Part shown: positions 907 to 16,735 of the stretch, in pieces
How positions within the stretch are numbered: position 1 is the first letter of the stretch
How the letters are laid out: the number at the start of each line of letters is the position of its first letter
Assembly (NCBI GenBank): GCA_900319355.1
Contig: ONOC01000002.1
Span: forward strand, 1-59,161
Source: an uncultured Eubacteriales bacterium
Lineage (GTDB): Bacteria > Bacillota > Clostridia > Lachnospirales > Lachnospiraceae
DNA length: 59,161 bases
Direction of reading: 5' to 3'
The notes under the pieces: model-generated
What the model saw: only the letters and a program-made list of their open reading frames with translations
Told to the model about the DNA's origin: nothing
The model's database searches: none
Position numbers and translations under genes: made by a program

Positions 907-1842
907 TCAAGACGTGCCGTGTTCCGGCTGGAAATAGAGGTCGGCCGCTTCGATATCGCGGTCCACCTGATTTTTCAGTTCTTCCACAGAACTGAACTTT
1001 ACCTCGGGGCGACGGTAATGGAGCAGTTCGACGCGCGCCTGCTGATCATACAGATCAAGGCTGCAGTCAAACAGGTAGGTCTCCAGACCGAGTCGGCTGC
1101 CGTCCACGGTCGGTTTGACGCCGATATTCGTGATTCCCTGATAGAGCCGTCCCCCGACGAGCGTTCTGGAAAAATAGACGCCGTGCGGCGGAAGCATCTT
1201 GGCAGGATCCGGGATCTGGTTGATGGTCGGGAAGCCGAGCGTCCTGCCCAGCTGCCTGCCGTGAACAATCTGTCCGGTGACGAAATACGGATAACCGAGG
1301 AGCTCCGTCACCTTCTCTATGCGGCCGCCGGCCAGTTCCTCGCGGATATAGGTGCTGCTGATGTCGCGGCTGCCGTCCTTTTCCTTCTCTATCACCAGGA
1401 CGCGGAATCCGTATTTTCCGGCGATCTGTGCCAGAAATTCCGGCGAACCGCTGCGGTTTTTCCCGAAATGGAAATCCGTTCCGACGACCACGGCCTTCGC
1501 ATGAAGCTTTCCGACGATAATATCCCGGACAAAGTCCTCCGCGGTCATGGACTTCAGTTTCTCCGTAAACGGACACTCGATCAGCTGGTCAACGTTCAGC
1601 TCCCGCATGATTTCCGCACGTTCCGGATTGGTCATCAGCATCTGCTGCGGCCGGGCACCCATGACAATCTGAGGCGCAACGTCGAACGTGAAAACCGCCG
1701 TCTGCCATTCCTCCTCGCGGGCAAGTCTGTGAATTTCCGCGATCAGTTTTCTGTGACCGCGGTGAACGCCGTCGAACTTGCCGAGCGTCAGCGCGGTGGC
1801 AGCCGGCGATTCATAAGTGTCCACATTTCTGATATATTTCAT
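907..1842 (-). CDS. ribF: Bifunctional riboflavin kinase/FAD synthetase RibF
   Basis: Converts riboflavin to FMN and then FMN to FAD in the cytosol. The N-terminal adenylyltransferase domain shows LTLGKFDGVHRGHRKLI, a nucleotidyltransferase motif, and VVVGTDFHFGKNRSG near residue 120. The ISSTYIREELAGG segment is also typical. The C-terminal flavokinase domain begins near residue 185 and shows GRTLGFPTINQ and HGVYFSRT. The length of 311 residues is normal. It is the last gene of the rimP-infB-truB operon and follows truB after a 158-base spacer that contains most of a duplicated truB 3' end. Confidence 0.96.
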   Translation of the reverse strand: MKYIRNVDTYESPAATALTLGKFDGVHRGHRKLIAEIHRLAREEEWQTAVFTFDVAPQIVMGARPQQMLMTNPERAEIMRELNVDQLIECPFTEKLKSMTAEDFVRDIIVGKLHAKAVVVGTDFHFGKNRSGSPEFLAQIAGKYGFRVLVIEKEKDGSRDISSTYIREELAGGRIEKVTELLGYPYFVTGQIVHGRQLGRTLGFPTINQIPDPAKMLPPHGVYFSRTLVGGRLYQGITNIGVKPTVDGSRLGLETYLFDCSLDLYDQQARVELLHYRRPEVKFSSVEELKNQVDRDIEAADLYFQPEHGTS

Positions 1843-1910
1843 CTTCCGCAGCCTTTCCGTGCGCAGGTCTCCCTGCGGTTATCTCCGCATCCGCTCCCGG
1901 CTGTCATGCC

Positions 1911-2038
1911 CGTCATCCTGATTCTGATGCTCCGGGTTATCCCTGTTCAGCCTCTAACCTGCTTCTGACGTTACCGTCATCCTGATTCTGATGCTCCGGG
2001 TTATCCCCGTTCAGCCTGTAACCGGCTTCTGACGTTAC
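1911..2038. repeat. 64-bp tandem duplication at the truB 3' end
   Basis: Two adjacent copies of a 64-bp unit occupy 1911-1974 and 1975-2038 and differ at only a few bases. The copy nearer truB encodes its last codons and stop (ending RSRLQAERG). The second copy lies downstream in the spacer and would encode a nearly identical tail (RSRLEAEQG). The unit is not a multiple of three. It looks like a recent slippage or unequal-crossover duplication. Confidence 0.9.
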
Positions 2039-3041
2039 CGTCACTCTTCTTCTGTGATGATACTGCGGCATCGCCGTCCCCGGCGCCGCAGAACTTCACA
2101 TAGGGATTCTCGTCAACCATAACATCCGCGGGATCGTAGAACATTCTGACCGGCATCAGCATGCTGCGGTCCTCATTCACACGGTACAGTCCCGTAAAAA
2201 TCCCGACCGAGTCGTACAGGCGCACCTCTCCGGTGAACGGCATCTCAGATATCTGCGTCATCACATCACTGAGCATGCCGGTGGGAATCTTGTTTCCGTT
2301 GTGGGCGAGGACATCGCCTTCATTTCCCGTGGAAACAGAAGGAATTCCCGAAAAAACCTGATCGGTCGGGATCACGATGTCCTTCAGGCGGTTTTCAGCG
2401 GCGATCTCGGCGATTTTGCCAAGCGTCAGCGCATCCTCTTCCTTGAAAATCCCGACCCTGGTCCTCGTCAGATGTTCCATACACCCGCCGCATCCCAGCT
2501 TCTCTCCGATGTCATGACAGAGCGTGCGGATATAGGTGCCGCGCGAGCAGACGACGCGCATCGTCACACGCGGCAGATCAAAGGAAAGCGCCCTGATTTC
2601 ATAGAAGTGAACCGGACGGGGCGCACGCTCGACGGTCTTCCCCTCCCGGGCAAGCTCGTACAGCTTCTTTCCGTTCACCTTCAGTGCCGAATACATCGGC
2701 GGGACCTGCATCTGATCTCCCTCAAAGGATTTCAGCACCTCGCGGATCTCATCTTCCGTGCAGGATACCTCCTGCTGCCGCAGCACCCGGCCCGTCTTAT
2801 CCTGGGTATCGGTGTCCGTACCGAGCAGCATCACCGCCTCATAGGTCTTCGTTTCATCCGTAAGGATGTCCGTCACCCTTGTTGCCTTGCCGAAACAGAC
2901 AGGCAGCACGCCGACCGCTTCGGGATCCAGCGTTCCCGTGTGGCCGATTCTTTTCTGATGAACGATGCCCCGAAGTTTTGCGACTACATCGTGGCTGGTA
3001 AAACCGGCCTCTTTATAAACGTTAATGACTCCGTTAATCAT
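2001..3041 (-). CDS. truB: tRNA pseudouridine(55) synthase TruB
   Basis: Isomerises U55 in the T-loop of tRNAs to pseudouridine. The N-terminus MINGVINVYKEAGFTSHDVV and the motif RIGHTGTLDPEAVGVLP near residue 35 contain the catalytic aspartate of the TruB family. Later motifs include VPPMYSALKVNGKKLYELAR and VVCSRGTYIRTLCHDIG. The C-terminal third beyond residue 230 is variable and resembles the RNA-binding tail seen in other TruB proteins. At 346 residues it is somewhat longer than usual. The final residues lie inside the 64-bp tandem duplication, so the extreme C-terminus may be a recent extension. The stop of the upstream gene nrnA is 60 bases away. Confidence 0.96.
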   Translation of the reverse strand: MINGVINVYKEAGFTSHDVVAKLRGIVHQKRIGHTGTLDPEAVGVLPVCFGKATRVTDILTDETKTYEAVMLLGTDTDTQDKTGRVLRQQEVSCTEDEIREVLKSFEGDQMQVPPMYSALKVNGKKLYELAREGKTVERAPRPVHFYEIRALSFDLPRVTMRVVCSRGTYIRTLCHDIGEKLGCGGCMEHLTRTRVGIFKEEDALTLGKIAEIAAENRLKDIVIPTDQVFSGIPSVSTGNEGDVLAHNGNKIPTGMLSDVMTQISEMPFTGEVRLYDSVGIFTGLYRVNEDRSMLMPVRMFYDPADVMVDENPYVKFCGAGDGDAAVSSQKKSDGNVRSRLQAERG

Positions 3042-3101
3042 GATCCTGTCTCCGAATCGTCTGTGATATTCCCCCGATACATACGATCCGCCTGCCCCGG
3101 A

Positions 3102-4088
3102 TTATGACTTCTCCGTCTGCTCCTCTTCTGCCGGAGCCAGCTCTTTTTCCAGATAAAGCGTCAGATTATTGATCACATCATACTGCGAGCCGTGCATCGT
3201 GCATCCTGCGGCGCGCACATGGCCGCCGCCCTGGAATTTCTGAGCCACCTCGCTCACGTCCACATAAGACCTGGAACGGAGGCTGACCTTCCAGACCGAA
3301 GGCTCTCTCTCATACATGAAAATCGCTACTTCGACGCCGATGGTGTTGCGGAGCTCGTTCACGATCCCGTCCATATCCTTGGGCTCGACGCCGTAAAAGG
3401 CCATATCCTTATTTTTCACATAGCCGATGATCAGTCTGCCGTCGAAAACCAGGATTGACTCCATGACCGTCCGGCCCATGATCTGGTTCTGCGCATAGGT
3501 CTTCTGATAATAGGTATCGTCGACGATCCGGCTGAACGGAATGCCCTTTTCCATCAGATTCGCGGCCACCCGCATCGTCACGGGCGATGTGGACGAATAC
3601 TGGAAAATGCCGGTATCGTGCGCAATTCCCATGTACAGCGCTTCCGCGCATTTCTCCGAGATGCTGTCCGGATCCATGTAATGATAGATTACTTCCGCGG
3701 TGGAACTCATCTCCGGATAATTAAAAATCCACGTGTAATGGTCCCTGTTGGTGACGTGATGATCGAAGCACAGAATCTTATCTGCCAGCGGAAGAAGCGG
3801 CTGAATCACACCGATCCTGTCGCGGCTGCTGATATCCAGAAGGATGATCAGATCATATGCTTTTCCCTCTTCCGCTGTCATGCGGACCTCATCCGATCCC
3901 CTGAGAAACCGGAACACATCGCGCAGATTTTCCAGATAGGCATCAACCTGAAGCTCAGGATAATTGTCCTCCAGATACATCTTCATGCCGAGAACCGAGC
4001 CCACACAGTCGCCGTCCGGATTGACGTGGCCGGCTATCGCCACCGTCTTCACGCCATCCAGATAATCACCGATATTTCCTGAAATCAT
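3102..4088 (-). CDS. nrnA: DHH-family phosphoesterase NrnA (nanoRNase/pAp phosphatase)
   Basis: Degrades very short RNA oligonucleotides and dephosphorylates 3'-phosphoadenosine 5'-phosphate. DHH-domain motifs are in order: AGHVNPDGDCVGS near residue 19, LLDISSRDRIG near 105, and FDHHVTNRDHY near 125. The C-terminal DHHA1 domain ends with the substrate-binding motif GGGHVRAAG near residue 290. The length, 328 residues, is normal. The ATG overlaps the stop of rbfA, with a GAGGAAGG ribosome site just before it, so the two are translationally coupled. This position between rbfA and truB is standard in Firmicutes. Confidence 0.93.
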   Translation of the reverse strand: MISGNIGDYLDGVKTVAIAGHVNPDGDCVGSVLGMKMYLEDNYPELQVDAYLENLRDVFRFLRGSDEVRMTAEEGKAYDLIILLDISSRDRIGVIQPLLPLADKILCFDHHVTNRDHYTWIFNYPEMSSTAEVIYHYMDPDSISEKCAEALYMGIAHDTGIFQYSSTSPVTMRVAANLMEKGIPFSRIVDDTYYQKTYAQNQIMGRTVMESILVFDGRLIIGYVKNKDMAFYGVEPKDMDGIVNELRNTIGVEVAIFMYEREPSVWKVSLRSRSYVDVSEVAQKFQGGGHVRAAGCTMHGSQYDVINNLTLYLEKELAPAEEEQTEKS

Positions 4089-4465
4089 TGACCTTCCTCA
4101 CGTTTTTTTCTGTCCTCCGCCAGAACCTCATCGATACGGTGTGACATGTTCACACCGTATTCGATGGATTCGTCCAGACGGAAAATCAGTTCGGGCGTAT
4201 TGCGCAGATTCAGATTCTGCGCGAGCTCGTGCCGGATAAATCCGGCCGAGCTCTTCAGGCCCTCCATGGTATCCTTCTTGGCCTTCTCATCGCCGAGCAC
4301 ACTGACCATGACCCTGCAGGTCTTCAGATCCGTCGCCACCGTCGCGGAAGTCACGCTCGTCATCATGGCGATGCGCGGATCCTTGACGTCGGAACGGATA
4401 ATATTGCTCAGCTCTTCTCTGACGGCCTCATTGATTCTTGTATTCTTAATGCTGTTTTTTCTCAT
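4085..4465 (-). CDS. rbfA: 30S ribosome-binding factor RbfA
   Basis: A late 30S assembly factor that binds near the 5' end of 16S rRNA. The 126-residue protein starts MRKNSIKNTRINEAVREELSNI and continues with VKDPRIAMMTSVTSATVATDLK, matching the KH-type RbfA fold, and LNLRNTPELIFRLDESIEYG toward the end. It lies 24 bases after infB and overlaps nrnA by four bases, as in many Firmicute rimP-infB operons. Confidence 0.95.
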   Translation of the reverse strand: MRKNSIKNTRINEAVREELSNIIRSDVKDPRIAMMTSVTSATVATDLKTCRVMVSVLGDEKAKKDTMEGLKSSAGFIRHELAQNLNLRNTPELIFRLDESIEYGVNMSHRIDEVLAEDRKKREEGQ

Positions 4466-10189: not shown

Positions 10190-11176
10190 TCAACATTTAC
10201 CCTCTGACTCTAACACCTTCCCGTCCTCTTTGCAACCCAAAAATGCAGGATTTTCGTCCGTTCCGGCGTCATGGCGGATATGGATGTCAAGCTGACTGTA
10301 CGGAATTTCGATACCGGCCTCATCAAAGGCCAGTTTGACGCGTTCATTCATATCCCAGGTGACCTGCCAGTAGTCTTCCGTCCTGACCGGCGCCTTCATC
10401 TGCATCGTCACCTGGCTGCTGTCAAGCCCGGTGACCACGACAGAGGCATGGCTGTCGTCGACGCGCGGATCCTCCTTCAGCAGGTGTTCCATGATTTTTC
10501 TTGCCTTCTGGATATCCGCCGAATAGGAAATACCGCAGCTGACGGTGATATACCTTCTTCCGTCGGATGAAATATTTGTCACCTGATTGTTGGTCAGGGA
10601 GGAATTCGGGATAGAGACTCTCTCGTGCAGCATCGTCTCGATCGTCGTGTAGTACATATCGATCTTGCGCACCGTTCCTTCCGCATCAACGGCAGGCACA
10701 CGGATATAATCGCCCACACGGAAAGGCCTGGTCAGCAGAATCAGAATGCCGCCCGCAAAATTCGAAAGCGTTCCCTGGATCGCCAGTGAGATGCCGACGC
10801 CGGCCGCCGCGACAATCGCGGCGATCGTGCTTGCTTCCACGATGTTCAGCCAGATGCAGACCTCGACCACGGCCAGAAGCATGATGATCCAGCGCACCAG
10901 CGAAGTAATAAAACCGCGCACTGACGCGTCCACATTCTTTCTGGACATTCTCCGGTCGATGAAACCCGTTATCTTCTTCAGCACCTTCCAGAGTACAAAA
11001 AGGATCAGAACGCCGATGCCGATCCGGATGAGATAATTCAGTGCGGTCGCCCCGAACGACGAGAACCACTGCGCCATATTTCCCTTTTCCGCGGCACTGG
11101 CTCCGTTTTTTGTGGTTTCTTCTATTGTCTCAGCGGCTGCGCTGACTGACTGTACATCTTCCATATAAAAATCCAT
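10190..11176 (-). CDS. mscS: Small-conductance mechanosensitive channel (MscS family)
   Basis: Membrane channel that opens under tension and protects the cell from hypo-osmotic shock. The 328-residue protein has hydrophobic segments near residues 47-66, 88-110 and 115-140. The third, pore-lining segment contains the Ala/Gly-rich stretch IAAIVAAAGVGISLAIQGTLSNFAGG typical of MscS. The following beta domain has RPFRVGDYIRV and IETMLHERVSIPNSSLTNN. It ends with the usual alpha/beta C-terminal domain. It lies 13 bases after the glgB-like stop plus a hairpin and is followed by a terminator, so it is probably the last gene of an ftsH-glgB-mscS unit. Confidence 0.93.
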   Translation of the reverse strand: MDFYMEDVQSVSAAAETIEETTKNGASAAEKGNMAQWFSSFGATALNYLIRIGIGVLILFVLWKVLKKITGFIDRRMSRKNVDASVRGFITSLVRWIIMLLAVVEVCIWLNIVEASTIAAIVAAAGVGISLAIQGTLSNFAGGILILLTRPFRVGDYIRVPAVDAEGTVRKIDMYYTTIETMLHERVSIPNSSLTNNQVTNISSDGRRYITVSCGISYSADIQKARKIMEHLLKEDPRVDDSHASVVVTGLDSSQVTMQMKAPVRTEDYWQVTWDMNERVKLAFDEAGIEIPYSQLDIHIRHDAGTDENPAFLGCKEDGKVLESEGKC

Positions 11177-11199
11177 GCCTGCGCCTCATGAGCGCAGGC
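11177..11199 (-). promoter_or_regulatory. Hairpin holding the mscS ribosome-binding site
   Basis: Eight-base arms GCCTGCGC and GCGCAGGC form a stem whose 3' arm touches the mscS ATG. The only Shine-Dalgarno-like bases (GAGG) lie in or next to the loop. Folding in the mRNA would partly hide the start region. This suggests weak or conditional translation of mscS. Confidence 0.45.
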
Positions 11200-11212: not shown

Positions 11213-13912
11213 TTACGCCTTCGTGCTGCCGTCGGATTTCCTGCCCGTTCCGGAAACTTTTTTCACCGCGCTGTCCACAGCTTCACGGACTTTATCCGCG
11301 GCCTCTCCGGCCGTATCGGCTGCCTTTGACGCTGCCTTTTCGGCAGCTTTTCCCGCTTTTACCACGGTATCCCTGGCCTTTGCTGCTTTCGATGCCGCCT
11401 TTCCTGTCTTCTTTACTGCCGCCGCTGCATTCTTCCCGACCGTTTTCGCCGTTTTTCCGGCAGCTTTTCCTGCGGTCTGCACCGCTTTTCCGGCGGTCTT
11501 TACGGCTTTTCCGGCCGTTCTGCCGGCGGTCTGTACCGCTTTTCCGGCCGTTCTGCCGGCGGTCTGTACCGCTTTTTCCGCCGTTCTGCCGGCGGTCTGC
11601 GCTGCTTTTTCCGCCGCCTTCCCGACAGCCTGCTCCGCGTCCTCCGCTGCTTTCTTTGTTGTCGTCTTCACCTTCGCTGTGACATCGGAAAAACGCTCCA
11701 CGGCCTCGGTGAAACGATAAACCGCAACCGCCAGAGGCGCCACGCGGATTTTTATCGAATCTTTCCGCTCATCCTGCTCCACGGCACGGCTGAGCTTCAC
11801 TCTCGGATTCACGGCACCGGTGCCGCCGAACTCCACGGCATCGCTGGAGAAGATCTCCTTGTACTTGCCGGGATAAGGCACACCGACCATCATGTTCTCG
11901 TACGTGACATTGGAGAAGTTGGCAACGATCAGAAGCGTCTCCTCCGTCCTCATGCTCTTTCTCAGGAAAACAAGCAGATTGCGCTCCCAGTCAAGGTTGC
12001 TGATCCATTCAAAGCCCTCAGAATTTTCATCCAGCTCATACAGGGCCGGCTGTTCTCTGTACAGCTTCAGCAGGGCCCGGAAATAAGACGCCATCTGTTT
12101 TCCTTCTTCGGACTCCGCTTCCTTCCAGTCAACGCCGTCATAAGGCGTGATTCTGGCGCTCTGCCCGAAGTCCTGTCCCATCGCGATCAGCTTCTTGCCG
12201 GGATGCGTCAGAAGGTACGCATAGGTCAGGCGCAGATTGGCTCTCTTCAGTTCAGGCTTTCCGCCCGGCATCTGCCGGATCAGCGTTCTGCCGCCGTCCG
12301 CAAACAGATCGTGCGAAAGGGCAAGCATGAATTTCTCACTGTACATATAGACGGAGCTGAAAGTGAGATCATCCTGATGAGATCCTCTGAACAGCGGATC
12401 CAGCTGGATATACTGCATATAATCGTGCACGCAGCCGTTGTTCCACTTGTAGCTGAATCCCAGACCGCCGCCGGACACGCTTCCCGTGACCTGCGGATAG
12501 CCGGTCTCTTCTTCGGCCACCGTGATCACGCCGGGCATCTCACGGCCGATCTCCACGTTCAGCTTCTTCAGGAACTCAATGGCTTCCAGATTTTCATTGC
12601 CGCCATAGATATTCGCTATCCATTCGCCGGTCTTTCTTCCGTAATCCAGATAGAGCATCGTGGCCAGATCATTGATTCTCAGGCCGTCGGCATGGTAAGC
12701 CGTCAGCCAGAAGAGTGCGCTTGAAATCAGGAAGCTCTGCACCTCTCCCCGGCCGTAATTGAAAATCAGGCTTCCGTTCTTCGGGTGAACACCCTTCTTC
12801 GGATCCAGGTGTTCGTACAGGCAGGTGCCGTCAAAAGCCGAGAGGCCGCTGTTGCTTCTGGCAAAGCCGCCCGGCACCCAGTCAAGGATGACGCCGATGC
12901 CATGGCGGTGGAGCTCATTGACCAGATACGCAAAATCCTCCGGCGATCCCATCCGGCTCGTAGGCGCAAAAAATCCGCTCGTCGCGTAGCCCATGCTCTC
13001 GTCATCCGGATATTCCATCACCGGCATCAGCTCCACATGCGTGTAACCCATCTTCGTTACATAGGAAACAAGTTCAGGCGCCGTCTGCCTGTAGCCGAGA
13101 GGCGTTCCGTCGCTGTTCTGCTTCCATGTGTTCAGATTCACCTCGTACACCGCCACAGGTCTCGAGGAAAGATCTGTCGATTCTCTTGCCGAAAGCCAGT
13201 CTTCGTCATCCCAGGAGAAGTTCAGGTCGGTCACGACGGAAGCGCCGTCCGGTCCCTTCTGGTATGCCCAGGCATTCGGATCGGCCTTCAGATAAACCAG
13301 TCCCGATTTCGCCTTGATCTCGAATTTATAATAACTGCCCGCCTTTACGTCCGGCACGAAGAGTTCAAAAATGCCCGTCTCCGTCCGGTTCATCTGGCAG
13401 ACGCGTCCGTCCCATCCGTTAAAATCACCGACAACGGACACACGCATGGCATTCGGCGCCCAGACGGCGAAATACACGCCCTCGGTGTCGTTGATTTTCA
13501 TCAGGTGAGCGCCAAGTTTTTCCCATGCATGATATCCGATCCCGTTGGTAAACCGGGTCTCTTCCTTCTCCGTGATGCGTGAAGCAAAGGCATACGGATC
13601 TCTGACTTCCCTTCCGCCGTCTTCTTTGTCCTCAAGAATGAAGGAATAAGCCGGGATTTTCTTCCCGTCGAGCATCACAGCAAAGAATCCGGATTCATCC
13701 TCCTGGACCATCGGAATCGTCTTTCCGCCGGAACGGATACTTACCTTTTCCCGTCCGGGAAAATACGCCTGCACCAGAATCCCGCCTTCCGTCACATGCG
13801 GGCCGAGAATCCGGCCGGGCCTGTCCGCTTCCGCATACACAACGGCTTCGATACCGGCCCAGTCCATCAGGTCATAAATTCTGCTTTCCATACTGCTTCC
13901 CGTGCTGCTCAT
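11213..13912 (-). CDS. GlgB-like protein with altered active site and Lys/Ala 11-mer repeat tail
   Basis: Overall it aligns with 1,4-alpha-glucan branching enzyme: an N-terminal CBM48-type domain (VYFAVWAPNAMRVSVVGDFNGWDG, near residue 147), a GH13 barrel (HVELMPVMEYPDDESMGYATSGFFAPTSRMGSPEDF) and an all-beta end near residue 735. Two catalytic regions differ from active GlgB. The usual DGLRVDAV motif reads DGLRINDL, putting Asn at the nucleophile position (residue 414), and the usual DWVPAHF reads DWVPGGF, losing a conserved His. The AEE and LSHD motifs remain. After the fold comes a tail of about 160 residues of Lys, Ala, Thr and Gly with 11-residue repeats. The start at 13912 has GGGGGA upstream. 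It sits between ftsH and mscS. The family assignment is firm; branching activity is doubtful. Confidence 0.85.
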   Translation of the reverse strand: MSSTGSSMESRIYDLMDWAGIEAVVYAEADRPGRILGPHVTEGGILVQAYFPGREKVSIRSGGKTIPMVQEDESGFFAVMLDGKKIPAYSFILEDKEDGGREVRDPYAFASRITEKEETRFTNGIGYHAWEKLGAHLMKINDTEGVYFAVWAPNAMRVSVVGDFNGWDGRVCQMNRTETGIFELFVPDVKAGSYYKFEIKAKSGLVYLKADPNAWAYQKGPDGASVVTDLNFSWDDEDWLSARESTDLSSRPVAVYEVNLNTWKQNSDGTPLGYRQTAPELVSYVTKMGYTHVELMPVMEYPDDESMGYATSGFFAPTSRMGSPEDFAYLVNELHRHGIGVILDWVPGGFARSNSGLSAFDGTCLYEHLDPKKGVHPKNGSLIFNYGRGEVQSFLISSALFWLTAYHADGLRINDLATMLYLDYGRKTGEWIANIYGGNENLEAIEFLKKLNVEIGREMPGVITVAEEETGYPQVTGSVSGGGLGFSYKWNNGCVHDYMQYIQLDPLFRGSHQDDLTFSSVYMYSEKFMLALSHDLFADGGRTLIRQMPGGKPELKRANLRLTYAYLLTHPGKKLIAMGQDFGQSARITPYDGVDWKEAESEEGKQMASYFRALLKLYREQPALYELDENSEGFEWISNLDWERNLLVFLRKSMRTEETLLIVANFSNVTYENMMVGVPYPGKYKEIFSSDAVEFGGTGAVNPRVKLSRAVEQDERKDSIKIRVAPLAVAVYRFTEAVERFSDVTAKVKTTTKKAAEDAEQAVGKAAEKAAQTAGRTAEKAVQTAGRTAGKAVQTAGRTAGKAVKTAGKAVQTAGKAAGKTAKTVGKNAAAAVKKTGKAASKAAKARDTVVKAGKAAEKAASKAADTAGEAADKVREAVDSAVKKVSGTGRKSDGSTKA
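11435..11596 (-). repeat. 33-bp coding repeats (TAGRTAGKAVQ type)
   Basis: Near-identical 33-bp units encode TAGRTAEKAVQ, TAGRTAGKAVQ and TAGRTAGKAVK, then shorter derivatives TAGKAVQ and TAGKAAGKTAK. The 11-residue period resembles amphipathic 11-mer repeats such as those of group-3 LEA proteins. The whole basic tail spans about 11213-11698. Confidence 0.9.
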
Positions 13913-13943
13913 AGGCTTATCCCCCAATCGTGTAAAAATTACT

Positions 13944-15878
13944 TCAGCTTACCGGATCCTCTGTGTGAACATCCCCGCCGGCTGCCGCGCCGCTGTTCTC
14001 CGCCGTACCGCTTTCCGGGGCAGCCGCCTCTGCTGCGGCTCCGGATTTATCCTCGATCGGCTTCCGGTTCAGAATTTCCATGAATTCCTCGCCTGTGATG
14101 GTCTCCTTCTCATAGAGGTACTTTGCAAGTTCATGCAGCTTTGAAATGTGGCTGCTGAGCAGATCCTTTGCCTTGTTGTACTGCTTCTGCACCAGATCAA
14201 CAACCATCTGATCGATGCGCGCTGACGTCTCCTCCGAGCATGCCAGCGAGGTATCGCCGCCGAGGTACTGATTCTTCACCGTTTCCAGTGCCACCATGCC
14301 GAACTCATCGCTCATGCCGTATCGCGTGATCATGGCACGCGCCACCTTCGTCGCCTGCTCGATATCGTTGGACGCTCCGGTCGTAACCGAATGGAAGATC
14401 AGCTCCTCCGCCACACGGCCGCCGGTGAATGTCGCGATCTTGTTCTCAAGTTCCTCCCGGCTGAGCAGGTTGTGCTCACCTTCGTCCACCTGAAGCGTAT
14501 AGCCGAGTGCGCCGGAGGTTCTCGGAATGATGGTGATTTTCGTCACCGGAGCCGAGTGATTCTGCAGCGCCGCCACAAGAGCATGGCCTGTCTCATGGTA
14601 GGCGACGATCAGCTTTTCCTTGGTCGTCAGAACCTTGTTCTTCTTCTGGTAGCCCGCGATGACGGTCTCGACCGCCTCCATGAGATCCTTCTGTACAACA
14701 AACTTTCTGTTGTCACGGACCGCATTCAGCGCAGCCTCATTGATCATATTGGCCAGCTCGGCGCCGGAAGCGCCGGCCGCTGTTCTGGCGATCTCGTTGA
14801 AGTCAACATTATCGGAGATCTTGATATCCTTCGCATGAAGCTTCAGAATCTCCTCACGACCCTTCAGGTCAGGCAGTTCCACCGGGATACGGCGGTCGAA
14901 ACGGCCCGGACGGGTCAGCGCGGGATCGAGGATCTCCGGACGGTTCGTCGCCGCCAGGATGACAACGCCCTTTCTGCCGTCGAAACCATCCATCTCGGCA
15001 AGCAGCTGGTTCAGCGTCTGCTCACGCTCATCATTGCCTGAGAAACCGCTGCCGTCACGTTTTTTGCCGATGGTATCAATCTCATCGATGAAAACGATAC
15101 ACGGCGCCTTCTCATTCGCCTGCTTGAAAAGGTCACGGACCTTTGCAGCGCCCATGCCGACAAACATCTCCACAAACTCCGAACCGGAGATGGAGAAGAA
15201 CGGCACATCCGCCTCACCGGCAACAGCCTTCGCAAGAAGCGTTTTACCTGTTCCGGGAGGTCCCACGAGCAGGGCGCCCTTCGGCATTTTCGCACCGATT
15301 TCCGTATACTTGCCCGGGTTGTGAAGGAAATCAACGATCTCCTTCAGCAGATCCTTTGCCTCGTCCTCGCCGGCGACATCGGAGAATTTGATACCTGTCT
15401 CGGCCTGTACATAAATCTTGGCATCACTCTTGCCGAACTGCATGGCATCACCCATGCCGCCCATCCGCTTCGTCAGCGATCTGGTCACGGCAAGACTCAG
15501 AAGATAAATGATGACCAGCGGAAGGATCCAGCTGATCAGGAAGCTCAGCACCGGATTCATCTGCGCATTGATCGGGCTTTCAAAATCTTCAATGCCCGCA
15601 TCATACAGCCGGTCGACAAGTTTGTAATCATCCATCATGCCGGTCTTGTATTCCTGACCGCTGTTGTCTGTAAAATAGATCGTATCATTGCCGGAATCCA
15701 CTTCTACCTGGCTGATCTCATTCTGATCCAGCATCTTCAGGAAATTCCCGTAGGTGGATTCCTGGATTTTCGCTTCCTGCACACTGGGAATCAGGAGCAG
15801 ATTCAGCAGGACAAGAACGATCATGGCGATGATATAATAAAATATCAGCGGCTTTTTGTTGTTCTTTATTTCTTTCAC
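13944..15878 (-). CDS. ftsH: ATP-dependent zinc metalloprotease FtsH
   Basis: Membrane-anchored AAA+ protease that degrades misfolded membrane proteins and some regulators. Two transmembrane segments (about residues 11-30 and 110-130) flank an extracytoplasmic domain. The AAA module has Walker A GPPGTGKT at residues 206-213, Walker [13 protein letters not shown], and the second region of homology [19 protein letters not shown]. The zinc site is HETGH near residue 430. At 644 residues it is typical. The start is a GTG at 15878 with GAGGA upstream. The C-terminus is Ala/Glu/Ser rich. It is followed closely by the glgB-like gene. Confidence 0.97.
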
Positions 15879-16479: not shown

Positions 16480-16735
16480 TCCGCTTATACCGTATGCGGC
16501 ACGGTGCTGTTACGCCGCACTTATACAATAAGCCCCATACTACAGGTAATGCCACATACTGTATAAGCTACGGATTGCTCCGTGCTTCGCACTCCCGCAA
16601 TCCTACAGGTATTCGGATTCCGCGCTATCGCGCTGCATCCTCATACCTGTTGCCTTCGAAACCGCATACAGCCTCTTACACACGCTCCGCGTGTGACGAG
16701 TCTGTCTGCGATTCGAAGAGCTTATACAATAAAGG
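16480..16735. repeat. Cluster of intergenic stem-loop repeats
   Basis: The 258-base gap between the M18 peptidase and greA has no gene. It holds several nested inverted repeats built on the plan TGTATAAG, then a stem-loop, then ACAGGTAT. One unit spans about 16555-16613 (GGATTGC and GCAATCC stem). A second, inverted, spans about 16609-16733 (CTTCGAA and TTCGAAG stem, plus CACACG and CGTGTG). A third lies at about 16488-16535 (TGCGGC and GCCGCA stem). A related unit precedes the NifX-FKBP gene near 47910. Confidence 0.65.

Follow-up and report, generated by a model that had tools for sequence, protein, structure and literature searches.

We found that the 59,161-nucleotide stretch analysed here (the window; contig ONOC01000002.1 of assembly GCA_900319355.1, from an uncultured Eubacteriales bacterium of the Lachnospiraceae) encodes a second GlgB, here called GlgB2, that appears to have lost the branching active site and kept the glucan-binding modules. 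The window GlgB2 is very probably no longer a glucan-cleaving enzyme. Because its sugar-binding parts have been kept by selection and its relatives have lost catalysis repeatedly, the copy is probably a non-catalytic helper, and on balance we favour a retained pseudoenzyme that acts as a glucan-binding accessory, like ISA2 of plants. A preliminary description of the gene had proposed that the protein probably does not branch glucan normally and that its role may be glycogen binding or the regulation of another enzyme, a view that fits the comparative evidence from sequences.

GlgB2 has the domain architecture and overall sequence of a GlgB (family GH13_9). It scored above all three NCBIfam cut-offs (NF003811, 748.9 with a cut-off of 741; NF008967, 739.9 with 577; TIGR01515, 692.8 with 463.95), and among its solved-structure matches GlgBs were best, with that of Cyanothece (5gr1) at the top (phmmer E 5e-187). 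Since these three equivalog cut-offs are passed, GlgB2 would be annotated as a functional branching enzyme, a label that could misdirect the reconstruction of glycogen metabolism. However, alignment with E. coli GlgB by MAFFT placed an Asn at the nucleophile position. The motif DGLRINDL starts at residue 409, and its N414 falls on E. coli Asp405. Likewise, DWVPGGF, starting at residue 344, stands in place of DWVPAHF, with G349, the second Gly, on E. coli His340. Both changes had been noted in the preliminary description, which gave the correct reading frame and residues in the numbering used here and left the strand, which is minus, unstated.

Six of the eight catalytic and substrate residues that we listed are retained in GlgB2: Y309, D344, R412, E467, H534 and D535 (E. 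coli Tyr300, Asp335, Arg403, Glu458, His525 and Asp526), among them the acid/base Glu458 and the stabiliser Asp526. The earlier statement that the AEE and LSHD motifs are intact holds for E467, H534 and D535 but was slightly generous about their flanks, which have changed: LSHD is followed by LFADGG instead of EVVHGK, SMGYA replaces SWGYQ and Asp415 replaces Ala406. Seven residues of the rice enzyme are reported to be catalytic or substrate-binding (Tyr, Asp, His, Arg, Asp, Glu and His; PMC4395411), and the available text of that study equates E. coli Arg403 and Asp405 with their rice counterparts. The remaining rice-to-E. coli matches are our own assignment, and Asp526 was taken as the stabiliser following the GH13 scheme as set out in the accessible part of PMC5347038. 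Glucan sites I, II and VII of E. coli GlgB are reported to be conserved in enterobacteria only (PMC10254366, available text), and the E. coli glucan-site map is therefore not transferable to GlgB2.

Close homologues sharing the loss, for which the preliminary description had advised looking, were found in the genus of the window (family and genus are the groupings of the genome collection used). GlgB2 was obtained from 12 of 16 genomes, one copy being a fragment (L021, genome G014), and the nucleophile Asp is absent from all 12. The nucleophile position is occupied by N, P, G or S, and the position of G349 by G, C, Y, S or F. The four genomes that gave no GlgB2 are 77–94% complete. The genus copies include that of [Eubacterium] cellulosolvens LD2006 (L037), whose record title carries no label of a metagenome-assembled genome and whose protein is identical to that of L007. 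Because all 12 copies, LD2006 included, are without the nucleophile Asp, chance or an assembly error is very unlikely.

GlgB2 proteins form one clade, most members of which are intact. Defining as dead any copy in which one or more of the eight residues is changed, we counted 38 dead copies among 138 sampled GlgB2 proteins, a biased frequency because 20 loci were picked mostly among lower scores, compared with none among 42 GlgBs outside the clade. The tree of these 180 rows, built with the catalytic columns blanked, needs 12 changes, all of them forced by starred branches, which puts the number of loss events at no fewer than 12. A tree of a different gene, comprising 81 adjacent MscS proteins, also needed 12 changes, of which 8 were forced. 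The count grew with sampling, from 2 changes with 57 rows to 9 with 146 and 12 with 180, and the long branches L058, L046 and L057 are possibly misplaced. L003, L082, L159, L021 and further fragments or duplicates were excluded from the trees. Diverged dead copies are under-sampled, because the family searches used score cut-offs of 1e-185 and 1e-120 and covered the best places, part of which were fetched. GlgB reading frames were taken from stop to stop, so that N-terminal lengths are upper bounds.

The dead members have lost one to seven of the eight residues, most often His340 (33 of 38) and Asp405 (32 of 38). Position 405 is N in 8 of them, T in 6, D in 6, P in 4, A, S and G in 3 each, E in 2 and H, V and C in 1 each, and it is Asp in all 42 GlgBs outside the clade. 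To locate the losses, we compared 71 intact with 34 dead rows, scoring the columns whose conservation in intact GlgB2 is 95% or more. Retention in dead copies was 0.94 in CBM48 (30 columns), 0.97 in the C domain (12) and 0.93 in GlgB_N (10), as against 0.80 in the linker (4) and 0.71 in the barrel (163), and the most-lost columns sit in active-site motifs. Additionally, Ala406, which is outside the definition of dead, is kept in every one of the 142 intact rows and replaced in all 38 dead rows. We regard this change and the localised losses as two signs of real inactivation.

The dead copies are nevertheless under purifying selection. The ratio of non-synonymous to synonymous substitution rates (dN/dS) was 0.06–0.08 in five pairs of closely related dead copies, a single trio of sequences supplying three of the pairs, and 0.13 between the window GlgB2 and L005, where dS was 1.7, near saturation, and one method was used. 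Six GlgB1 pairs gave 0.03–0.07; three intact GlgB2 pairs had no usable dS, and the comparison covers dead GlgB2 and GlgB1. The median depth from the GlgB2 root was 1.27 for dead and 0.69 for intact copies, by which measure the dead copies evolve faster. Faster evolution is reported for ISA2 as well (PMC12510319, accessible text). The repeated loss across the clade and the purifying selection, together with the mscS pairing and the tail repeats described below, go beyond what the preliminary description had seen.

A second, canonical glgB, which that description had suggested looking for, is present in the same genome: L002 has all eight residues. It has no separate GlgB_N domain, a weak Pfam match overlapping its CBM48. 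The first 190 or so residues of its reading frame (946–3390, plus strand) are a long Ala/Lys-rich N-terminal extension whose composition resembles that of the GlgB2 tail. A third GlgB-like gene of this genome, L003, also has the eight residues in place; its region II is unusual (DIVTVHF), and the next gene encodes a WYL-domain regulator. The genome contains glgA and glgP.

Another GlgB match was found in all 31 dead-GlgB2 genomes searched, a count that leaves out the genomes of L040, L044, L045 and L046. The eight residues of this other GlgB were intact in 28 genomes and, read from split pieces, in two more (G015 and G025); they were left unread in G014 only. The genomes of L217, L225, L226 and L232 had two GlgB matches apiece. 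By comparison, 13 of about 70 intact-GlgB2 genomes (69 or 70, as mapped by hand) had no second match at E 1e-110 (Fisher p 0.008 for n = 70, kinship ignored). A kinship-corrected test of whether another GlgB is required before GlgB2 dies was without power (same direction in 0.3 of 9 pairs).

GlgB2 ends in a basic tail (Table 1). Tails of at least 30 residues were present in 76 of 105 GlgB2 proteins, 72 of which had a net positive charge; 4 of 41 other GlgBs had tails of that length. The tail of the window GlgB2 contains a 33-bp tandem repeat (11490–11599), and its hydrophobic moment peaks at 99 degrees. The best repeat lag was 11 residues in the window GlgB2, L005 and L020 and 22 in L009, with peaks at 98–99 degrees, the angle of an 11/3 helix like that of synuclein. 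The shuffle p value of 0.005 is no independent proof, because the tandem repeat makes periodicity likely. A p value of 0.03 or less was obtained for 13 of the 57 tails tested; besides the four just named, the other nine peaked at varied angles. The intact L102 and L114 also showed a lag of 11, with peaks at 102–103 degrees. In the genus, the tails of five loci with an adjacent mscS gene are 96–185 residues long and those of six loci without one are 3–69.

We observed that mscS, which encodes a mechanosensitive channel, is the gene most often found downstream of GlgB2 across the clade. Among the 132 GlgB2 loci with room for it, 100 have a same-strand mscS gene next downstream (77 of 96 intact and 23 of 36 dead). 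Of the other GlgBs, 24 had room and 1 of these has an adjacent mscS, whereas a further 17 lacked the room. When eight named loci (flanks of up to 8 kb) were compared with the window, the channel frame recurred in 8 of the 9, a cluster of antisense frames in 7 and other frames in at most 5. The minus-strand order in the window is greA, ftsH, glgB2, mscS, rimP, nusA, infB, and in the loci of the genus ftsH and rimP-nusA-infB likewise flank the GlgB2 gene and, wherever it occurs, mscS. We rejected ftsH as a clade-wide partner: it adjoins GlgB2 in the genus loci and in L020, and the other GlgB2 loci examined have no ftsH there. In the papers naming both proteins, as far as their text was accessible, we found no link between GlgB and MscS.

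The glgB2–mscS gap in the window is 36 bases and holds a terminator-like hairpin of nine pairs (11177–11199, minus strand) whose end directly adjoins the mscS start codon (11176). This hairpin might terminate transcription weakly or might serve to control translation. A scan of the window found 3 promoters (3.4 expected) and 13 terminator-like sites (6.5 expected). Other genes occupy the mscS place in some loci. After the dead GlgB2 of L168 (genome G077), the downstream gene (2802–4313, plus strand) encodes a 4-alpha-glucanotransferase (Glyco_hydro_77, malQ type), and after the intact GlgB2 of L090 (3842–4348, plus strand) and L096 (3858–4352, plus strand) there is a His-rich metal-sensitive repressor (Trns_repr_metal). 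Further upstream in the window, directly before greA, an Rfam Clostridiales-1 RNA (RF01699, 110.9 bits) matched at 16562–16726 on the minus strand. A PADLOC run matched one GlgB-like model and led nowhere.

If GlgB2 is a glucan-binding accessory, CBM48 and further sites on its surface would bind glycogen. It would then keep in place or orient either the glycogen particle or, as putative partners, glycogen synthase and the true branching enzyme. Anchoring to the membrane, or to another anionic surface, would be the task of the basic amphipathic tail. Nature has here repeatedly removed catalysis and kept the rest, so that the non-catalytic role of a branching enzyme becomes directly testable.

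Several observations weigh against a glucan-binding accessory. Glu467, His534 and Asp535 survive, and the active site is therefore only partly gone. The constant presence of another GlgB beside dead copies is significant only without correction for kinship. The hairpin between glgB2 and mscS may make a single transcript less likely. Six of eleven genus loci have a short tail and no adjacent mscS, and the gene can thus be retained without either feature. A link between tail length and mscS, which we rejected, had a raw Mann-Whitney p of 0.04 that ignores kinship; at a cut-off of 70 the corrected median p was 0.125 and then 0.375, and other cut-offs were weaker. Finally, a branching enzyme that has died can end up wholly outside glucan metabolism, as the case of MKIP1 shows (PMC13172542, available text).

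It is possible, though doubtful, that GlgB2 took the same path as MKIP1 and became a scaffold outside glucan metabolism, its tail binding membrane, nucleic acid or the neighbouring MscS. The mscS pairing, the frequency of long, positively charged tails, the 11-residue-type amphipathic repeats of the window GlgB2, L005, L009 and L020 and the gene's placement between ftsH and rimP-nusA-infB in the genus would all be consistent with such a role. However, CBM48 retention in dead copies is what would be expected if glucan were still bound, although MKIP1 kept its carbohydrate-binding module too, and the mscS pairing is common to intact members and therefore independent of the loss of catalysis. A more specific and unlikely proposal is that a glycogen-binding GlgB fold, catalytic or not and tethered by its basic amphipathic tail, might couple the glycogen store to the mechanosensitive channel at the membrane. 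Osmotic state and carbon storage would then inform each other, and catalysis would be dispensable and lost at least 12 times, often with the same local rebuild after the lost nucleophile.

We think it improbable that GlgB2 remains an enzyme whose nucleophile has shifted by one residue, with Asp415 in the place of Asp405. The preliminary description had called a takeover by the adjacent Asp possible but unusual. The idea is better founded than it supposed, as Asp415 directly follows Asn414, Glu467 and Asp535 are kept, and 26 of 38 dead rows (21 with Asp and 5 with Glu) but none of the 142 intact rows have an acid at the Ala406 position, a trait that changes 11 times on the tree. A precedent also exists in BmaN1, an alpha-amylase reported to be active, with Lys202-Asp203 where others carry Asp, for which a one-residue shift was proposed (PMC5347038, in the part available). 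GlgB2 resembles BmaN1 in having its nucleophile position replaced and followed by Asp, and differs in that the stabiliser Asp is His in BmaN1, whereas GlgB2 keeps Asp535. Across the clade, however, the acid does not seem to accompany a preserved triad. Among the 32 dead rows without Asp405, 24 have the acid, and of these Glu458 is kept in 19, Asp526 in 7 and both in 5; both are kept in 3 of the 8 rows without the acid. In the genus, the acid also accompanies Pro, Gly or Ser at the nucleophile position together with a lost Asp526. The commonest Asp405 replacements, which include N, T, S and G, and the acid after them presumably resemble an N-cap where helix 4 begins. The recurrent residue pair may therefore reflect helix capping once catalysis stops constraining the site.

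Very improbable is an ordinary, slow branching enzyme that tolerates Asn: the six retained residues and the GlgB equivalog cut-offs would suit it, but His340 is gone too, the surroundings of LSHD and SWGYQ have changed, dead relatives lack up to seven of the eight residues and none of the 42 GlgBs outside the clade has replaced Asp405. We rejected a decaying pseudogene or assembly error as hardly credible. It would suit such a reading that the root depth of dead copies is roughly double that of intact ones and that GlgB2 was missing from 4 of 16 genus genomes, but the long open frames, the low dN/dS, the same state across species, the conserved domains outside the active site and the genus-wide and recurrent loss all speak against it.

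The coordinates of GlgB2 and its neighbours are given in Table 1. An alternative TTG start at 13927 would lengthen GlgB2 to 904 residues, and a GGGGGA lies upstream of its ATG.

Table 1. Features of the glgB2 locus (window positions)
Feature	Position	Strand	Remarks
GlgB2 pseudoenzyme (putative) reading frame	11213..13912	minus	899 aa; ATG at 13912, stop at 11213
GlgB_N domain (PF22019)	13592..13861	minus	Pfam
CBM48 carbohydrate-binding module (PF02922)	13271..13519	minus	Pfam
GH13 barrel region	12008..13180	minus	Approximate limits, drawn between Pfam domains; alpha-amylase Pfam match
C-terminal all-beta domain (PF02806)	11711..12007	minus	Pfam
Gly349 codon	12866..12868	minus	Aligns with E. 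coli His340
Asn414 codon (AAT)	12671..12673	minus	Aligns with nucleophile Asp405
Asp415 codon	12668..12670	minus	Aligns with Ala406
Basic Ala/Lys-rich tail	11216..11710	minus	Net charge +20; 11-residue amphipathic repeats
mscS-family channel gene	10190..11176	minus	Pfam MS_channel domains; best solved-structure matches are MscS
ftsH, upstream neighbour	13944..15878	minus	

Compared with the GH13_9 GlgBs of Cyanothece (5gr1) and E. coli, GlgB2 shares the domain order N–CBM48–barrel–C and differs in the replaced nucleophile Asp and catalytic His, the altered motif flanks and the added basic repeat tail. We found no free-standing bacterial GlgB described as inactive in the literature searched, from which most subscription papers were absent. 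Chlamydial GlgA–GlgB fusions likewise contain a bacterial branching-enzyme domain described as inactive, but there the inactivity is ascribed to the gene fusion, whereas GlgB2 is a free-standing paralogue with replaced catalytic residues (PMC11046441, accessible text). Gut bacteria such as Blautia obeum and Dorea longicatena are reported to have two or three glgB homologues per genome, in an account whose available part is silent on inactive copies (PMC10395257).

Several glgB genes per gut genome and the non-catalytic GH13 paralogues of plants, ISA2 and MKIP1, were thus already known; what is new is a bacterial paralogue with 12 or more apparent inactivations in one family and with selection still acting on it. 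As the two plant proteins illustrate, there are GH13 pseudoenzymes, and these can either remain in glucan metabolism or leave it (PMC12510319 and PMC13172542, as far as accessible). In MKIP1, of the plant class III branching enzymes, two catalytic Asp residues have become His and Asn, no activity is reported and putting the triad back did not restore it. GlgB2 similarly has a branching-enzyme fold with catalytic residues replaced, whereas MKIP1 is a plant plastid protein with a MatK-binding insertion of 150 residues and a role in intron splicing (PMC13172542, available text). ISA2 (GH13_11) is described as a non-catalytic paralogue that is kept by selection and binds ISA1. It differs from GlgB2 in being a debranching-subfamily protein of plant plastids with one ancient loss and reported binding to its active paralogue; GlgB2 is like it in the lost nucleophile, the faster evolution, the selection and the active-type paralogue alongside (PMC12510319, accessible text). 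Two marks of the ISA2 type, loss of catalytic residues under selection and a residue-intact paralogue (L002) in the same genome, were found for GlgB2.

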